From contig JAEUTI010000092.1 in the NCBI GenBank assembly GCA_016788065.1, forward strand, positions 1 through 64,000: 64,000 bases of DNA, in the 5' to 3' direction. Of the stretch, positions 40,128 to 45,838 are shown one piece after another. The notes below the pieces were generated by a model. The model saw only the letters and a program-made list of their open reading frames with translations, did not search any database and was not told the DNA's origin. Made by a program: the position numbers and the translations under genes. Position 1 is the stretch's first letter; each line of letters starts with the position of its first letter. The DNA is from Bacteroidia bacterium (lineage in GTDB: Bacteria > Bacteroidota > Bacteroidia > AKYH767-A > OLB10).

Positions 40128-41600
40128 ATGATGAAAAAACTTACTTATTCACTAATAATTGCCCTCTTTTCATTCACAGTTACTGCTCAGCCTTGCAAGG
40201 AAGTTGTTGGTTATTATGCCGGATGGAAGTATCATAAACGAAATAAACTGGTTAATCCCGCAACTATTATCTATTCTAATTATACAATTATTAATTACGC
40301 TTTTTTTAAGCCATTGCCCGGTGGTGAGGTGGTTCCGGGAGATGCTCACACCGATAATCTGATTTTATTGGGAACCAGGAATCAGCAAATGCAACACGAT
40401 AAAAGTACATCCCTTGTTTATAAAGCGCATCAAAATGGTGTGAAGGTTGTTGTTTCGGTTGGTGGCTGGACCTGGTCATCGCATTTTCCGGCAATTGCTG
40501 CGGACCCATCTAAAAGAAAAAACTTTGTAAACTCCTGTATCGGAATTGTTCGCAAATATGGTGTCGATGGAATTGATATTGATTGGGAATATCCCGGACA
40601 TGCTCCGCATAATGGAACACCCGACGATAAAGCCAATCTCACTTCATTGATTTCTGAATTAAAAGCAGCTTTGGTTAAAACCGGAATTTCGGATGGCAAA
40701 AATTACCTTTTGACCTTCGCAACCGGACCAGCACAAAAACACATGGCTCAAATCGATTGGGCCAGAGTAGAGCCTCAGTTGGATCTGATTCATTTGATGT
40801 CGTATAATTATTATGGTGCATGGGATAAAACCACGAATCACAACACTCCTTTATACAAACCTGCAACCGGAAATTTCCGGTATAATGTCGATCATTCGGT
40901 AACGCTATTGACCGATACTTTTAACATTCCTTCCTCCAAAATCACTCTTGGTTTAGCCTTTTACGGACGAACAGCAACCTTTCAGGATGAAGTTGCCCTC
41001 CATGCGCCTTCCACCGGTATTGATGCCCTTTCTTTTCCTGATGAAAAGGGTACGCCTTCCTACTTTAATATTATGCTAAAGCAAAACCTGTTTGATAAAG
41101 AATTTGATGAAGTTGCTAAAGTGCCTTACCTGACCGGTAAAAACGGGAGCAAGGCTTTTGTGAGTTTTGATGATGAAAATTCAATTGGTCAGAAAACAGC
41201 ATTTGCTGTTCAAAAAAATATGGCCGGAGTAGTGATTTGGGATATTTCCGGCGACTATATCGAAACTAAACCCGGTTCCGGTAAAATTGCCGGGACTCCG
41301 CTTTGCAATGCTATTCTCGCAAATACTTGTCAGGGCGCAATTGCTTCGGGAAAGATTATGGATTTCGGGTTAAAAGCATATCCAAACCCGGTTTTGGATG
41401 AGATGGATATTGTTTGGTCTGAATCGGTGTTTTCGCCCTCTATTGAAGTGTTATCTGCTTCCGGACAGCAGGTTTTTTCTGGTAGTTCAATTCAAGGTAA
41501 CCAGTTGAAAATTAATACTTCCAGCTGGTCTTCCGGAATCTATTTGGTGAGCATCTCAGCACCCAACGAAAAGGCTTCGGTGAAAGTAGTAAAATTGTAA
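40128..41600 (+). CDS. Glycoside hydrolase family 18 chitinase, T9SS cargo
   Basis: 490 aa. Signal peptide ends VTAQ at residue 20. The GH18 barrel (about 24-400) has VVVSVGGWTWSSHFP and the catalytic VDGIDIDWEYPG, giving DxxDxDxE with Glu154 as the acid. LIHLMSYNYYGAWD and GVVIWDISGDYIE follow. A T9SS type A domain ends the protein (AYPNPVLDEMDIVW). It cleaves beta-1,4-linked GlcNAc chains by the substrate-assisted retaining mechanism, outside the cell. There is no separate chitin-binding module. It is transcribed alone; the next gene has its own promoter. Confidence 0.94.
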   Translation: MMKKLTYSLIIALFSFTVTAQPCKEVVGYYAGWKYHKRNKLVNPATIIYSNYTIINYAFFKPLPGGEVVPGDAHTDNLILLGTRNQQMQHDKSTSLVYKAHQNGVKVVVSVGGWTWSSHFPAIAADPSKRKNFVNSCIGIVRKYGVDGIDIDWEYPGHAPHNGTPDDKANLTSLISELKAALVKTGISDGKNYLLTFATGPAQKHMAQIDWARVEPQLDLIHLMSYNYYGAWDKTTNHNTPLYKPATGNFRYNVDHSVTLLTDTFNIPSSKITLGLAFYGRTATFQDEVALHAPSTGIDALSFPDEKGTPSYFNIMLKQNLFDKEFDEVAKVPYLTGKNGSKAFVSFDDENSIGQKTAFAVQKNMAGVVIWDISGDYIETKPGSGKIAGTPLCNAILANTCQGAIASGKIMDFGLKAYPNPVLDEMDIVWSESVFSPSIEVLSASGQQVFSGSSIQGNQLKINTSSWSSGIYLVSISAPNEKASVKVVKL

Positions 41601-41615
41601 AAATTGAGGTTCTGC

Positions 41616-41646
41616 TTTGAATGAATGGCTATTGTGGCTATCTTTG
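41616..41646 (+). promoter_or_regulatory. Bacteroidota promoter: -33 TTTG (41616-41619), -7 TATCTTTG (41639-41646)
   Basis: Both boxes match consensus with a 19-bp spacer, and the ATG of the propeptide-like lipoprotein is 19 bp further on. It probably drives the three genes to 45838. Confidence 0.75.
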
Positions 41647-41665
41647 AGATTCATCCGAATTTGCC

Positions 41666-42238
41666 ATGAAAATTAGCTTTTTAGTCTGTGCCATTATCAC
41701 TGTTTCAGTAGTTGTTTCCTGCAAAAACAGGGAAGGATCTTTACCTGCAAATGTTGCACCAGCTCAGGTTTCCAATCCCGTTTTGTTTGAGGATGTGGTT
41801 AATGCACCAGCTGATTTATCATGTCCTGATAAAATTTTCCCTACCAGTTACCGGTTGCTAAAAGTCGATTATCCTGCATTGTGGAAGCTAATGGTAATTC
41901 AGGGCGAAACTGCCGGTGCACTTGCAAAGGATACCATTGTACTTTCTATACCATTGCCTGAAGGCGGAACCGAAGATTTTATAATGACCCAGGTGAAAGT
42001 GATGGCCCCCGAACTGGCGGCGAAATACCCAAACATAAAAACATATTCCGGCACCAGTAAGGTTTATGCAACGGACAAGATAAGAGCTGATATTTCACCT
42101 CAAGGCTTTCGTGCCATGATTCAAAGTACCCGTGGTGCATTTGTTATAGATCCTTATTGTAAAAATGATTCCATTCATGCAATAAGTTATTACAGAAAGT
42201 TTCTGCCCGAAAATTCTAAACAAGATTTCGAAAGATAA
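41666..42238 (+). CDS. Lipoprotein resembling the propeptide of the following metalloprotease
   Basis: 190 aa with a lipoprotein signal; lipobox VVSC gives acylated Cys19. Residues about 54-180 align with residues 49-173 of the protease encoded next, which form its N-terminal prodomain. In a hand alignment, 18 of 37 residues are identical over 93-129 of this protein and 86-122 of the protease. The shared pattern is IP.P.G....F, VM.P.LAA.YP.I.TYSG, GF.AMI and IDP. There is no zinc motif and no T9SS domain. A free-standing prodomain could act as an inhibitor protecting the cell, or as a folding helper. Either is inference, but the tandem order, the 37-bp gap and the shared promoter support a functional pair. 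Confidence 0.75.
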   Translation: MKISFLVCAIITVSVVVSCKNREGSLPANVAPAQVSNPVLFEDVVNAPADLSCPDKIFPTSYRLLKVDYPALWKLMVIQGETAGALAKDTIVLSIPLPEGGTEDFIMTQVKVMAPELAAKYPNIKTYSGTSKVYATDKIRADISPQGFRAMIQSTRGAFVIDPYCKNDSIHAISYYRKFLPENSKQDFER

Positions 42239-42275
42239 AATATCCATACGTAAACTACCAACTTAAATACTTCTT

Positions 42276-44528
42276 ATGATGAATCTGAGACCTAAATCAT
42301 TATTATTAACTCTGTCATTGTTGTTGACGCTTCAGTTGACTGCATTTGCCTCTGAAAAGGGTAGAAGCGCATGGCAGCGGATTGAATTGCAAAAAGTAGC
42401 TCTGAAAGGAGAAAGAATCATTCAGGCTTCTGAATTTCTTAGTTTTCAACTGAACAGCCAGGCCTTGCAGAATCTTTTTGAAAGTGCACCACATGAATCT
42501 GAAGTATCTGCCAGGAACTCATCGGCAATTATCGAAATTCCAATGCCGGACGGTTCATTTCAGGAGTTTCGAATTTTAAAATCAGATGTGATGCATCCTG
42601 ATCTTGCTGCTCGTTATCCTGATATAACAACATACAGTGGTCAGGGGATCACAGATCCACATGCTACGGCGAAATTCGATTTTACACAATTCGGATTTCA
42701 TGCCATGATCCTTACTGCAGGTCAAACAGTATTCATTGATCCACTAACTCTCGAAGATCCTGATATGCTGATGGTTTATTATACACGTCATTTTATCACC
42801 ACTAAAGAATTTATATGCCATACTCCAGATGGTGTTTCTTTATTCGAAGAACAGCAGCGGAATGGAAATTCATCCGTACAGCGTTCCATTGGAACCGATT
42901 TAAAAACTTACCGACTGGCAATGGCAACAACAGGAGAATATGCCTCTGTATTTGGAGGAACTGTTGCCGGTGCGCTTGCAGCAATTGTGACTTCCGTGAA
43001 CAGAGTTACCGGGGTTTATGAAAGAGAATTTGCAATCAGAATGGTATTAATTCCAAATACAGATACCCTGATTTTTACCAATGCAAATACAGACCCATAT
43101 ACCAACAACGATGGTGGAGCAATGCTTGCTCAAAATCAAACTACTGTCACTGCACGCATAGGTGGTCCGAATTATGATATCGGCCATGTGTTCAGTACCG
43201 GTGGTGGTGGTATTGCAGGATTAGGCGTTATTTGTAATTTTTCGAATAAAGCACGCGGTGTAACAGGTTCACCTTCTCCTTTTGGTGATCCTTTTGATAT
43301 CGATTATGTGGCTCATGAAATGGGTCACCAGTTTGGTGGAAATCATACGTTCAATTGTGAAGTAGGTGCGTGTGCAGGAAATAGATCGTTCACTACGGCT
43401 TATGAACCAGGCAGTGGTAGTACCATTATGGCTTATGCCGGAATTTGTGGCAATAATAACCTTCAGCCTAACAGTGATGATTATTTCCATACGAAAAGCT
43501 TCGATGAAATTATTACTTACACAACTACCGGAGTAGGAAATATGTGTCCGGTAGTTACACCAACAGGTAACCAACCTCCGGTTATTAATCCCGGTGGAAA
43601 TTATATCATTCCTTATCTAACACCATTTCGTTTAACTGGTAATGCAACAGATCCCGATGGCGATCCTGTAACTTATTGCTGGGAACAATATAATCTGGGG
43701 CCTGCAGGAACCTGGAGTGCTCCCAGTGGAAATGCACCTATTTTCCGGTCATTTGATCCTACACCTAATCCGGTGCGTCTTTTCCCTAAACTCACCAATA
43801 TTCTGAATAATAATCAAACCATAGGAGAAGTGAAACCTTCTTATGCCAGAATTCTGAATTTTAAATTAACGGCTCGTGATAACAGATTAAATGGAGGAGG
43901 AGTCACCAATAATGACACCACCGTTCAGGTAGAAGTAATTAATACAGGACAACCATTCGCTGTTACTTCACCAAACGTAACCGGTATCACTTGGGCTGCC
44001 GGTGGCGTTGAAACAGTAACTTGGGATGTTGGTGGTTCTGATTTAGCTCCAATTAATACGCCATTGGTAAATATTCTGTTATCAACTGATGGTGGAAATA
44101 CTTTCCCTACGGTCCTGGCAACGGCAGTTCCAAATAATGGAAGCTATAATGTTAATGTTCCAAACGTTTCTACAACCACCGCCAGAGTGATGGTTGAAGG
44201 AAATGGAAATATTTTCTTCGATATCAACGATAAAAATTTTGCTATCGGACCTGTTGGAATTGGCGAAGTCAGCTATCTCAATGGGGTTTTCATTGCACCT
44301 AATCCGGCATCCGGTTCTTTCGAAGTGGTAATTAAAGAAGGTTCTGAGTTTTACAAAACGACTAATGTCCTTGAACTTATCGATATTACCGGCAGAATAG
44401 TTTTATCGGAAACTTTAAGTGCAGTTCGACAAAAGGTTGATATATCCGGGTTTGCTGCAGGATTGTATATCTATACGCTCCGAAATGAAGCAGGTAAATC
44501 AAGTTCAGGAAAGTTGATGGTTGAATAG
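42276..44528 (+). CDS. Reprolysin-like metzincin protease with prodomain, T9SS cargo
   Basis: 750 aa. Signal peptide (to about 26). The prodomain (about 27-180) has the same IP.PDG.F, LAARYPDITTYSG, GFHAMI and FIDP pattern as the preceding lipoprotein. The catalytic domain (about 205-435) has the zinc site HEMGHQFGGNH (His347, Glu348, His351, His357), HEXXHxxGxxH as in reprolysin-type metzincins. A Met-turn candidate is STIMAYAGICG. An Ig-like/cadherin-like region (about 440-530), a further beta domain (about 560-660) and a T9SS type A domain (IAPNPASGSFEVV) follow. It is a secreted zinc endopeptidase, presumably made as an inactive precursor. Confidence 0.92.
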   Translation: MMNLRPKSLLLTLSLLLTLQLTAFASEKGRSAWQRIELQKVALKGERIIQASEFLSFQLNSQALQNLFESAPHESEVSARNSSAIIEIPMPDGSFQEFRILKSDVMHPDLAARYPDITTYSGQGITDPHATAKFDFTQFGFHAMILTAGQTVFIDPLTLEDPDMLMVYYTRHFITTKEFICHTPDGVSLFEEQQRNGNSSVQRSIGTDLKTYRLAMATTGEYASVFGGTVAGALAAIVTSVNRVTGVYEREFAIRMVLIPNTDTLIFTNANTDPYTNNDGGAMLAQNQTTVTARIGGPNYDIGHVFSTGGGGIAGLGVICNFSNKARGVTGSPSPFGDPFDIDYVAHEMGHQFGGNHTFNCEVGACAGNRSFTTAYEPGSGSTIMAYAGICGNNNLQPNSDDYFHTKSFDEIITYTTTGVGNMCPVVTPTGNQPPVINPGGNYIIPYLTPFRLTGNATDPDGDPVTYCWEQYNLGPAGTWSAPSGNAPIFRSFDPTPNPVRLFPKLTNILNNNQTIGEVKPSYARILNFKLTARDNRLNGGGVTNNDTTVQVEVINTGQPFAVTSPNVTGITWAAGGVETVTWDVGGSDLAPINTPLVNILLSTDGGNTFPTVLATAVPNNGSYNVNVPNVSTTTARVMVEGNGNIFFDINDKNFAIGPVGIGEVSYLNGVFIAPNPASGSFEVVIKEGSEFYKTTNVLELIDITGRIVLSETLSAVRQKVDISGFAAGLYIYTLRNEAGKSSSGKLMVE

Positions 44529-44566
44529 TAGATTCTAATGCATTCATTTATGTAAAAAATATAGTC

Positions 44567-45838
44567 ATGCTGAAAATTCTATCCAGTTGCTTATGCGGAT
44601 TACTTTTTGCCACTACTGCAGTCAGTCAATGGGTTCAGCTGCCTGCATCGCCATTTACATCATCTCGTTTAGATGATATTTACTTTGTGGATGATAATAC
44701 CGGATGGACCTGTAGCGGCGATGGATACATTTATAAAACAGTAAACGGAGGAACCAATTGGTTCCTCCAGTTTGCTTCAGCAGAATATTTCAGGAGTATT
44801 GAGTTTATCAATCCTACAACAGGTTTTGCAGGAACCCTTGACGGGAAAGTTTTTAAAACAGTAAATGGTGGTTCAACATGGACCGACTTCACAGCAACAT
44901 TACCTGTTCCTCCGTATGGAATTTGTGGCATTTCACACTTTGGAAATACCGTATTCATGGTTGGTAACTGGAGTCAGAATGCCGATTTGTACAAATCCTT
45001 TGACGGAGGAGTTACCTGGTCACATCAAAGTCTGAATTCTTTAGCTGAAAATTTAGTTGAGTGCCTTTTTATTAATGCAAATGAAATTTTAATCAGTGGA
45101 CTGGTTGCTTTGCCCCAGGCAACAGGTGGTTGTATTTTGCGTTCAACCGATGGTGGTGCAACCTGGACAAGGATCTTTAATACCGGAATTGCAAATGAAT
45201 ATGTATGGAAATTACAGACCCGAAATAATGGACTGGTGTATGGTTCTGTAGAATCATTAACCGGTAATGCAACCTGGTTTGTCAAGTCAACCGACTGGGG
45301 TGCCAACTTTCAAAAGCTTCCGGTTAGTCTTACCGTAAACATTGATGCTGAAGGAATAGGTTTTGTAAACGATACCATCGGATTCATTGATGGATATGGC
45401 ATTGCTATGTATAAAACAGTTGATGGTGGAAACAGCTGGACTGTCATGCAGCCCAATAACCGAACTAACAGATTCTTTGTCTTGCCTTCCGGAATAGCCT
45501 ATGCTTCCGGCAGTACAGTGTGGAAATATCAACCCGGAACGACCGGGCTTCCAACTTCAACAGAACCACATAAAAATGCTCACCAACTTTTTGTGAGTCC
45601 AAATCCTTCAAATGCTATAACCGGGATTAAACTGATCACAGGATTTAATACCTATGCAATTCTTGAAGTGTATGACAGCAACAAAAAGTTAGTGATGCAA
45701 TTACACCAGGGAAGAATTACTTCAGGAACTCATGATTTTTCTGTTGATTGTACTTCTCTTGCCGCAGGAATTTACCACGTAATTTTACGAACGAATGAAC
45801 ATTTCCTGACTGAAAAATTGGTTGTTATACCAAAATAA
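44567..45838 (+). CDS. YCF48/BNR-like beta-propeller protein, T9SS cargo
   Basis: 423 aa. Signal peptide, then a propeller of about seven blades over 25-325 with recurring motifs TGW.CSGDGYIYKTVNGGTNW, TGFAGTLDGKVFKTVNGGSTW, DLYKSFDGGVTW, LRSTDGGATW and AMYKTVDGGNSW. These are the YCF48 / sialidase-type Asp-box repeats. A T9SS type A domain ends it (VSPNPSNAITGI). No sialidase catalytic Arg triad or Tyr-Glu pair was recognised, so a binding rather than hydrolytic role is likely. It starts 38 bp after the protease gene with no terminator between, so it is probably the last gene of that operon. Confidence 0.85.
   Translation: MLKILSSCLCGLLFATTAVSQWVQLPASPFTSSRLDDIYFVDDNTGWTCSGDGYIYKTVNGGTNWFLQFASAEYFRSIEFINPTTGFAGTLDGKVFKTVNGGSTWTDFTATLPVPPYGICGISHFGNTVFMVGNWSQNADLYKSFDGGVTWSHQSLNSLAENLVECLFINANEILISGLVALPQATGGCILRSTDGGATWTRIFNTGIANEYVWKLQTRNNGLVYGSVESLTGNATWFVKSTDWGANFQKLPVSLTVNIDAEGIGFVNDTIGFIDGYGIAMYKTVDGGNSWTVMQPNNRTNRFFVLPSGIAYASGSTVWKYQPGTTGLPTSTEPHKNAHQLFVSPNPSNAITGIKLITGFNTYAILEVYDSNKKLVMQLHQGRITSGTHDFSVDCTSLAAGIYHVILRTNEHFLTEKLVVIPK

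Follow-up and report, generated by a model that had tools for sequence, protein, structure and literature searches.

Why should a secreted protease that carries its own prodomain be encoded beside a second, free-standing prodomain? The question is raised by two adjacent genes in a stretch of DNA of 64,000 nt (hereafter the window) from a member of the Bacteroidota with a genome of 4.26 Mb, the first encoding a small lipoprotein and the second a metzincin exported by the T9SS. Because the protease already has a prodomain in cis, there is no obvious need of another for its folding. As set out below, the lipoprotein and the prodomain of its neighbour are homologous, and the lipoprotein probably holds the protease inactive or helps to fold it before export, in what would be a two-gene form of a device that is elsewhere part of the enzyme itself.

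The gene pair and the homology of its products

The features of the pair are listed in Table 1; the two reading frames and the gap between them agreed with those given in a first-pass annotation of the window, which had also assigned one consensus promoter to both genes. An exact match to the pattern TTTG-N19-TAnnTTTG was indeed located 5′ of the lipoprotein gene, where 64 of 65 bp were the same in sister genome G001, and no match to this pattern was found in the 37-bp gap. The window contained 3 exact matches to the pattern versus 0.77 expected by chance. The two genes may thus form one transcription unit.

Table 1. Features of the lipoprotein-protease pair (positions in the window)
Feature	Position	Strand	Basis or remark
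Promoter match TTTG-N19-TATCTTTG, Bacteroidota-type	41616..41646	+	pattern match; directly 5′ of lipoprotein start
Lipoprotein gene, 190 aa, free-standing prodomain	41666..42238	+	ORF, homology, dN/dS
Lipobox cysteine C19 (VVS-C, then KNREG)	41720..41722	+	sequence
Prodomain-like fold, lipoprotein residues 48-182	41807..42211	+	profile comparison, AF2
C-terminal tail LPENSKQDFER of lipoprotein	42203..42235	+	stops where attached prodomains run on into F-x-Cys
Intergenic gap, 37 bp	42239..42275	+	same sequence in sister genome G001
Protease gene, 750 aa, T9SS-exported reprolysin-like (M12B) metzincin	42276..44528	+	domain matches
Cis prodomain, protease residues about 30-175	42363..42800	+	profile comparison, AF2
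Linker cysteine C181, candidate cysteine switch	42816..42818	+	alignment of attached prodomains
Catalytic domain, Reprolysin_4, residues 210-405	42903..43490	+	domain match
Metzincin zinc motif HEMGHQFGGNH	43314..43346	+	sequence; conserved in homologues
T9SS sorting domain, Por_Secre_tail	44298..44522	+	domain match

BLASTP aligned the lipoprotein with the neighbouring protease at 36% over 90 aa (E 6e-15), and 18 identities in about 37 residues, the figure reported in the first-pass annotation, could be counted by eye on this alignment. Profile-profile comparison of 6 free copies with 38 attached prodomain-protease sequences gave a match with a probability of 99.9 and an E-value of 5.7e-31 over 138 columns. 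Since this match spans lipoprotein residues 48-182, the range of 54-180 proposed earlier is right, and sequence comparison confirmed that the window lipoprotein is homologous to the prodomain of its neighbour across its whole folded part. A profile search had been named as the analysis that might show the two domains to be unrelated; with such an E-value across the whole fold, it therefore favours the original observation. When Pfam and NCBIfam were searched at E<=1, no propeptide model matched the free or the attached prodomain, and the Pfam M12B propeptide model had no match in either protein of the pair; because the domain is without a model in these collections, annotators miss both forms.

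The protease matched Reprolysin_4 with 123 bits (cut-off 22) and the Por_Secre_tail/TIGR04183 T9SS domain above the cut-off, and possessed the Met-turn IMAY. The prodomain was followed by a linker cysteine (F-x-C) in 33 of the 38 attached prodomains, and the corresponding prodomain cysteine of ADAM17 binds zinc (PMC11248996). In most of the five sequences lacking this cysteine (L018, L023, L031, L072 and L073) a Glu was seen by eye near its position, which may represent an acidic form of the switch. The linker cysteine was looked for in the free copies and was absent from all of them; they end at the F-x-Cys point, where most have an aromatic residue and then an acidic or basic one (DFER, SYE, SFD, PFEN, RFEA and SYR). 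The motif LPx[GND]SK was common to the window lipoprotein and the Hymenobacter copies. The core motifs were kept, and some conserved prodomain positions, among them the His of GFHAM, were lost in most free copies.

Distribution and descent of the free-standing prodomains

A search of other genomes for the lipoprotein-protease pair, as the first-pass annotation had suggested, showed that the pair recurs. Free copies were found at 19 loci in at least six family-level groups, all within the Bacteroidota (11 genomes in six families, seven Hymenobacter species and one Cytophagaceae MAG), and in 19/19 cases the free copy lay directly upstream of, and on the same strand as, a prodomain-bearing protease. 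The distance between the two genes was mostly 4-125 bp, with 455 bp in H. elongatus and an overlap or near overlap in G127. Since the other neighbours that were looked at vary between families, the conserved unit consists of two genes. In a Cytophagaceae MAG (L136:3223-8361), two proteases of the family lie in tandem downstream of a single free copy. The attached prodomain had matches in 110 of 395 genomes of the class and 77 of 396 of the phylum, as well as in MAGs labelled Chloroflexota, Verrucomicrobia, Planctomycetes, Acidobacteria and Proteobacteria; free copies were rarer, being absent in about 9/10 of the genomes with the domain.

The constancy of this adjacency across lineages bears on whether the prodomain fold might have been reused for an unrelated envelope task, as a binding or scaffold protein to which the protease is merely adjacent. 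Loss of the His of GFHAM and of other conserved positions would be in keeping with such reuse, but together with the retained core motifs the constant presence of the protease makes it improbable.

Selection and descent were consistent with a maintained gene. Relative to G001, dN/dS was 0.099 for the lipoprotein overall, 0.035 for its domain (15 synonymous and 2 non-synonymous changes) and 0.011 for the neighbouring protease. The low value for the domain and the recurrence of the pair show that the lipoprotein gene is under strong purifying selection and is not debris. On prodomain trees of 73 and 104 sequences, with several long branches and a bootstrap that had not settled, the free-copy label changed 3 and 3 times versus 9.5 and 15.1 in shuffles, and the label of the partner prodomains 7 and 10 times; for the partner catalytic domains, 11 changes were counted versus 14.8 in shuffles. 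As far as these trees indicate, the free copies tend to group with the free copies of other genomes and not with the prodomain of the neighbour, and the partner proteases lie dispersed across the tree of proteases. The starred sister of the window copy was that of G224 in the smaller tree, and there was none in the larger. In the AU test, groupings of free copies with their own partners (p 0.143 and 0.057) were not formally rejected, nor was a single clade comprising every free copy (p 0.371). The trees disfavour the view that free copies arose repeatedly and recently by duplication from the neighbour, although the AU tests do not formally reject it and are compatible with one origin as well as with several.

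Homology and adjacency alone would also fit a relic of a tandem duplication from which the catalytic part was lost. The purifying selection on the domain, the possession of a signal peptide of its own and a consistent end, the grouping of free copies with those of other genomes instead of the neighbour, and the recurrence in six or more families all speak against this origin, which is hardly credible and was discarded in view of the dN/dS value and the recurrence of the pair.

The genome of the window also encodes a second M12B protease, which is larger (G000:C59, L039:1-941), and the sister genome has a counterpart of 1407 aa (L040:114-4337). The window lipoprotein was closer to the prodomain of this second protease (38%, 87 bits) than to that of its neighbour (34%, 48 bits). 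This, and the restriction of free copies to few tree groups while their partners are scattered (3 versus 10-11 changes), is what would be expected if the lipoprotein regulated other M12B proteases of the cell, instead of or besides the adjacent one; a protease nevertheless adjoins the free copy in every case, and regulation of this wider kind appears distinctly unlikely.

Predicted structures and known systems

AF2 modelled the mature lipoprotein with a pLDDT of 85.8 and a pTM of 0.76, and the protease zymogen with values of 87.4 and 0.88, the linker being disordered and the part bearing C181 having a pLDDT below 50, so that the model speaks neither for nor against coordination of zinc by this cysteine. 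The predicted order of strands and helices in the lipoprotein was that of the cis prodomain. In Foldseek, the best match of the zymogen model was the ADAM17 zymogen (E 1.2e-11), with other M12B or metzincin structures lower. The search with the lipoprotein model covered 350,542 chains and gave no PDB match at E<=0.001; its top match was to chains N, M and L of 6o38 (E 0.018, probability 1.00, TM 0.47/0.63), followed by the ADAM17 prodomain (8snl, 8snm). Entry 6o38 is listed as a chaperone-substrate complex; we take it to be that of CpaA and CpaB, in which the short chains matched would, from their length, be CpaB. A profile search of PDB sequences with the lipoprotein gave no match to 6o38 at E<=1, PDB sequence searches with the free and attached forms gave nothing meaningful, and no potempin was named among the fold matches listed for the lipoprotein model.

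The first-pass annotation was aware of no published bacterial example of such an arrangement, but precedents exist in the potempin-KLIKK pairs and in CpaA-CpaB. In Tannerella forsythia, each KLIKK protease gene is preceded by that of a small lipoprotein, later named potempin, for which inhibition of the downstream protease has been reported (PMC4404884, PMC7296668). The likeness lies in the gene order, a small lipoprotein being encoded immediately before a T9SS-exported protease that has a profragment of its own. The six potempin ORFs are without significant mutual similarity and, to our knowledge, potempins have not been described as copies of KLIKK profragments; the window lipoprotein, unlike potempins as described, is a homologue of the protease prodomain. 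In Acinetobacter, CpaB is a membrane-anchored chaperone needed for secretion of the adjacent metzincin CpaA, whose active site is plugged by the C-terminal tail of CpaB as in a zymogen (PMC4713064, PMC7542363). CpaB resembles the window lipoprotein in its adjacent gene, its membrane anchor and its adamalysin-like metzincin partner, and is the best, albeit weak (E 0.018), structural match of the lipoprotein model; it differs in being encoded downstream, in having a transmembrane anchor, in serving the T2SS and in the lack of detected sequence similarity, and the window protease, unlike CpaA, keeps a prodomain in cis. ADAM17 (M12B) shares the predicted fold and, with the attached form, the linker cysteine, but its prodomain is covalently attached. 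Stand-alone subtilisin propeptide-like proteins of the I9 family, namely SUB1-ProM, TgMIC5 and the yeast peptidase B inhibitor, inhibit proteases (PMC6993865). There, too, a propeptide fold has a gene of its own, in Plasmodium beside proteases, although the enzymes are serine proteases, the organisms are eukaryotes and the fold is unrelated.

Layout and principle are therefore already known from potempins, CpaB and stand-alone I9 propeptides. What appears undescribed is the combination of an enzyme that retains its prodomain with a homologous prodomain standing free next to it; searches of an open library of papers found no account of free-standing M12B prodomains.

Location and proposed mode of action

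A lipobox was present in 11 distinct free copies, whereas most Hymenobacter copies, read by eye, had a plain signal peptide without one. The earlier description of the protein as membrane-anchored is thus correct for the window and the majority of lineages, with most Hymenobacter copies as the exception. The suggestion that it acts near the producer, which implies surface display, fared less well. Known surface export signals of lipoproteins need acidic residues (PMC5080379), and 10 of the 11 lipidated copies had none at +2 to +6, where residues were neutral or positive. SusD-like lipoproteins of the same family, taken as controls, had similar residues (KKNFE, for example, versus KNREG in the window), which weakened the signal as a discriminator; because KNREG is not clearly distinguishable from them, the orientation of the window lipoprotein is uncertain. 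From the neutral or positive residues of most lipidated copies and the plain signal peptides in Hymenobacter, the lipoprotein would be held in the envelope and most likely face the periplasm.

If the lipoprotein were instead displayed outside, it could protect the cell by inhibiting mature protease that strays back to its producer. Such self-protection would match the Tannerella pairs in gene layout, in lipidation and in the cis profragment that KLIKK enzymes likewise keep, and the resemblance of KNREG to KKNFE would allow it. Because acidic residues are mostly absent and some relatives are unlipidated, surface protection seems somewhat unlikely, and we favour, at a confidence just short of even, an envelope-tethered, periplasm-facing prodomain that serves in trans as inhibitor or chaperone of the co-encoded protease. 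That the free prodomain acts on its neighbour, as the first-pass annotation proposed, gains from the full-domain homology, the purifying selection and the recurrent adjacency; the binding, inhibition or chaperoning itself is what we infer from them. Counted against a prodomain in trans are the many related proteases that occur without a free copy, the greater similarity of the lipoprotein to the second protease's prodomain than to that of its neighbour, and the weakness of the Foldseek matches to CpaB in combination with the lack of a CpaB sequence match.

In the periplasmic model, the lipoprotein would be exported by Sec, lipidated and kept in the envelope, where it would bind the co-encoded T9SS metzincin at its catalytic domain, as the cis prodomain would, with the C-terminal tail of the lipoprotein placed across the active-site cleft. 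The cis prodomain would supply the cysteine switch, and the lipoprotein would keep freshly translocated or prematurely activated enzyme in a folded, inactive state up to its export by the T9SS. More tentatively, the pairs may represent an old Bacteroidota family of dedicated ADAM-type trans prodomains acting on T9SS metzincins that retain a cis prodomain. Each enzyme would then have two prodomains, the cis one with and the trans one without a cysteine switch, and the latter would provide a reversible, cleavage-independent checkpoint in the envelope.

Should the lipoprotein inhibit its partner, nature would here provide a free-standing prodomain as the inhibitor of an ADAM-like enzyme, which would point to a route by which protease-specific inhibitors and chaperones such as CpaB can evolve from prodomains. 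The T9SS exports many proteases of the Bacteroidota, and the pair offers a compact, testable case of two genes for how such enzymes may be kept inactive en route. Within positions 40128-45838 of the window, three T9SS-tailed genes were found, encoding a GH18 chitinase, the metzincin protease and a YCF48-like propeller protein; the T9SS component GldL is encoded elsewhere in the same genome, and the GH18 chitinase gene adjoins the pair in sister genome G001 as well.
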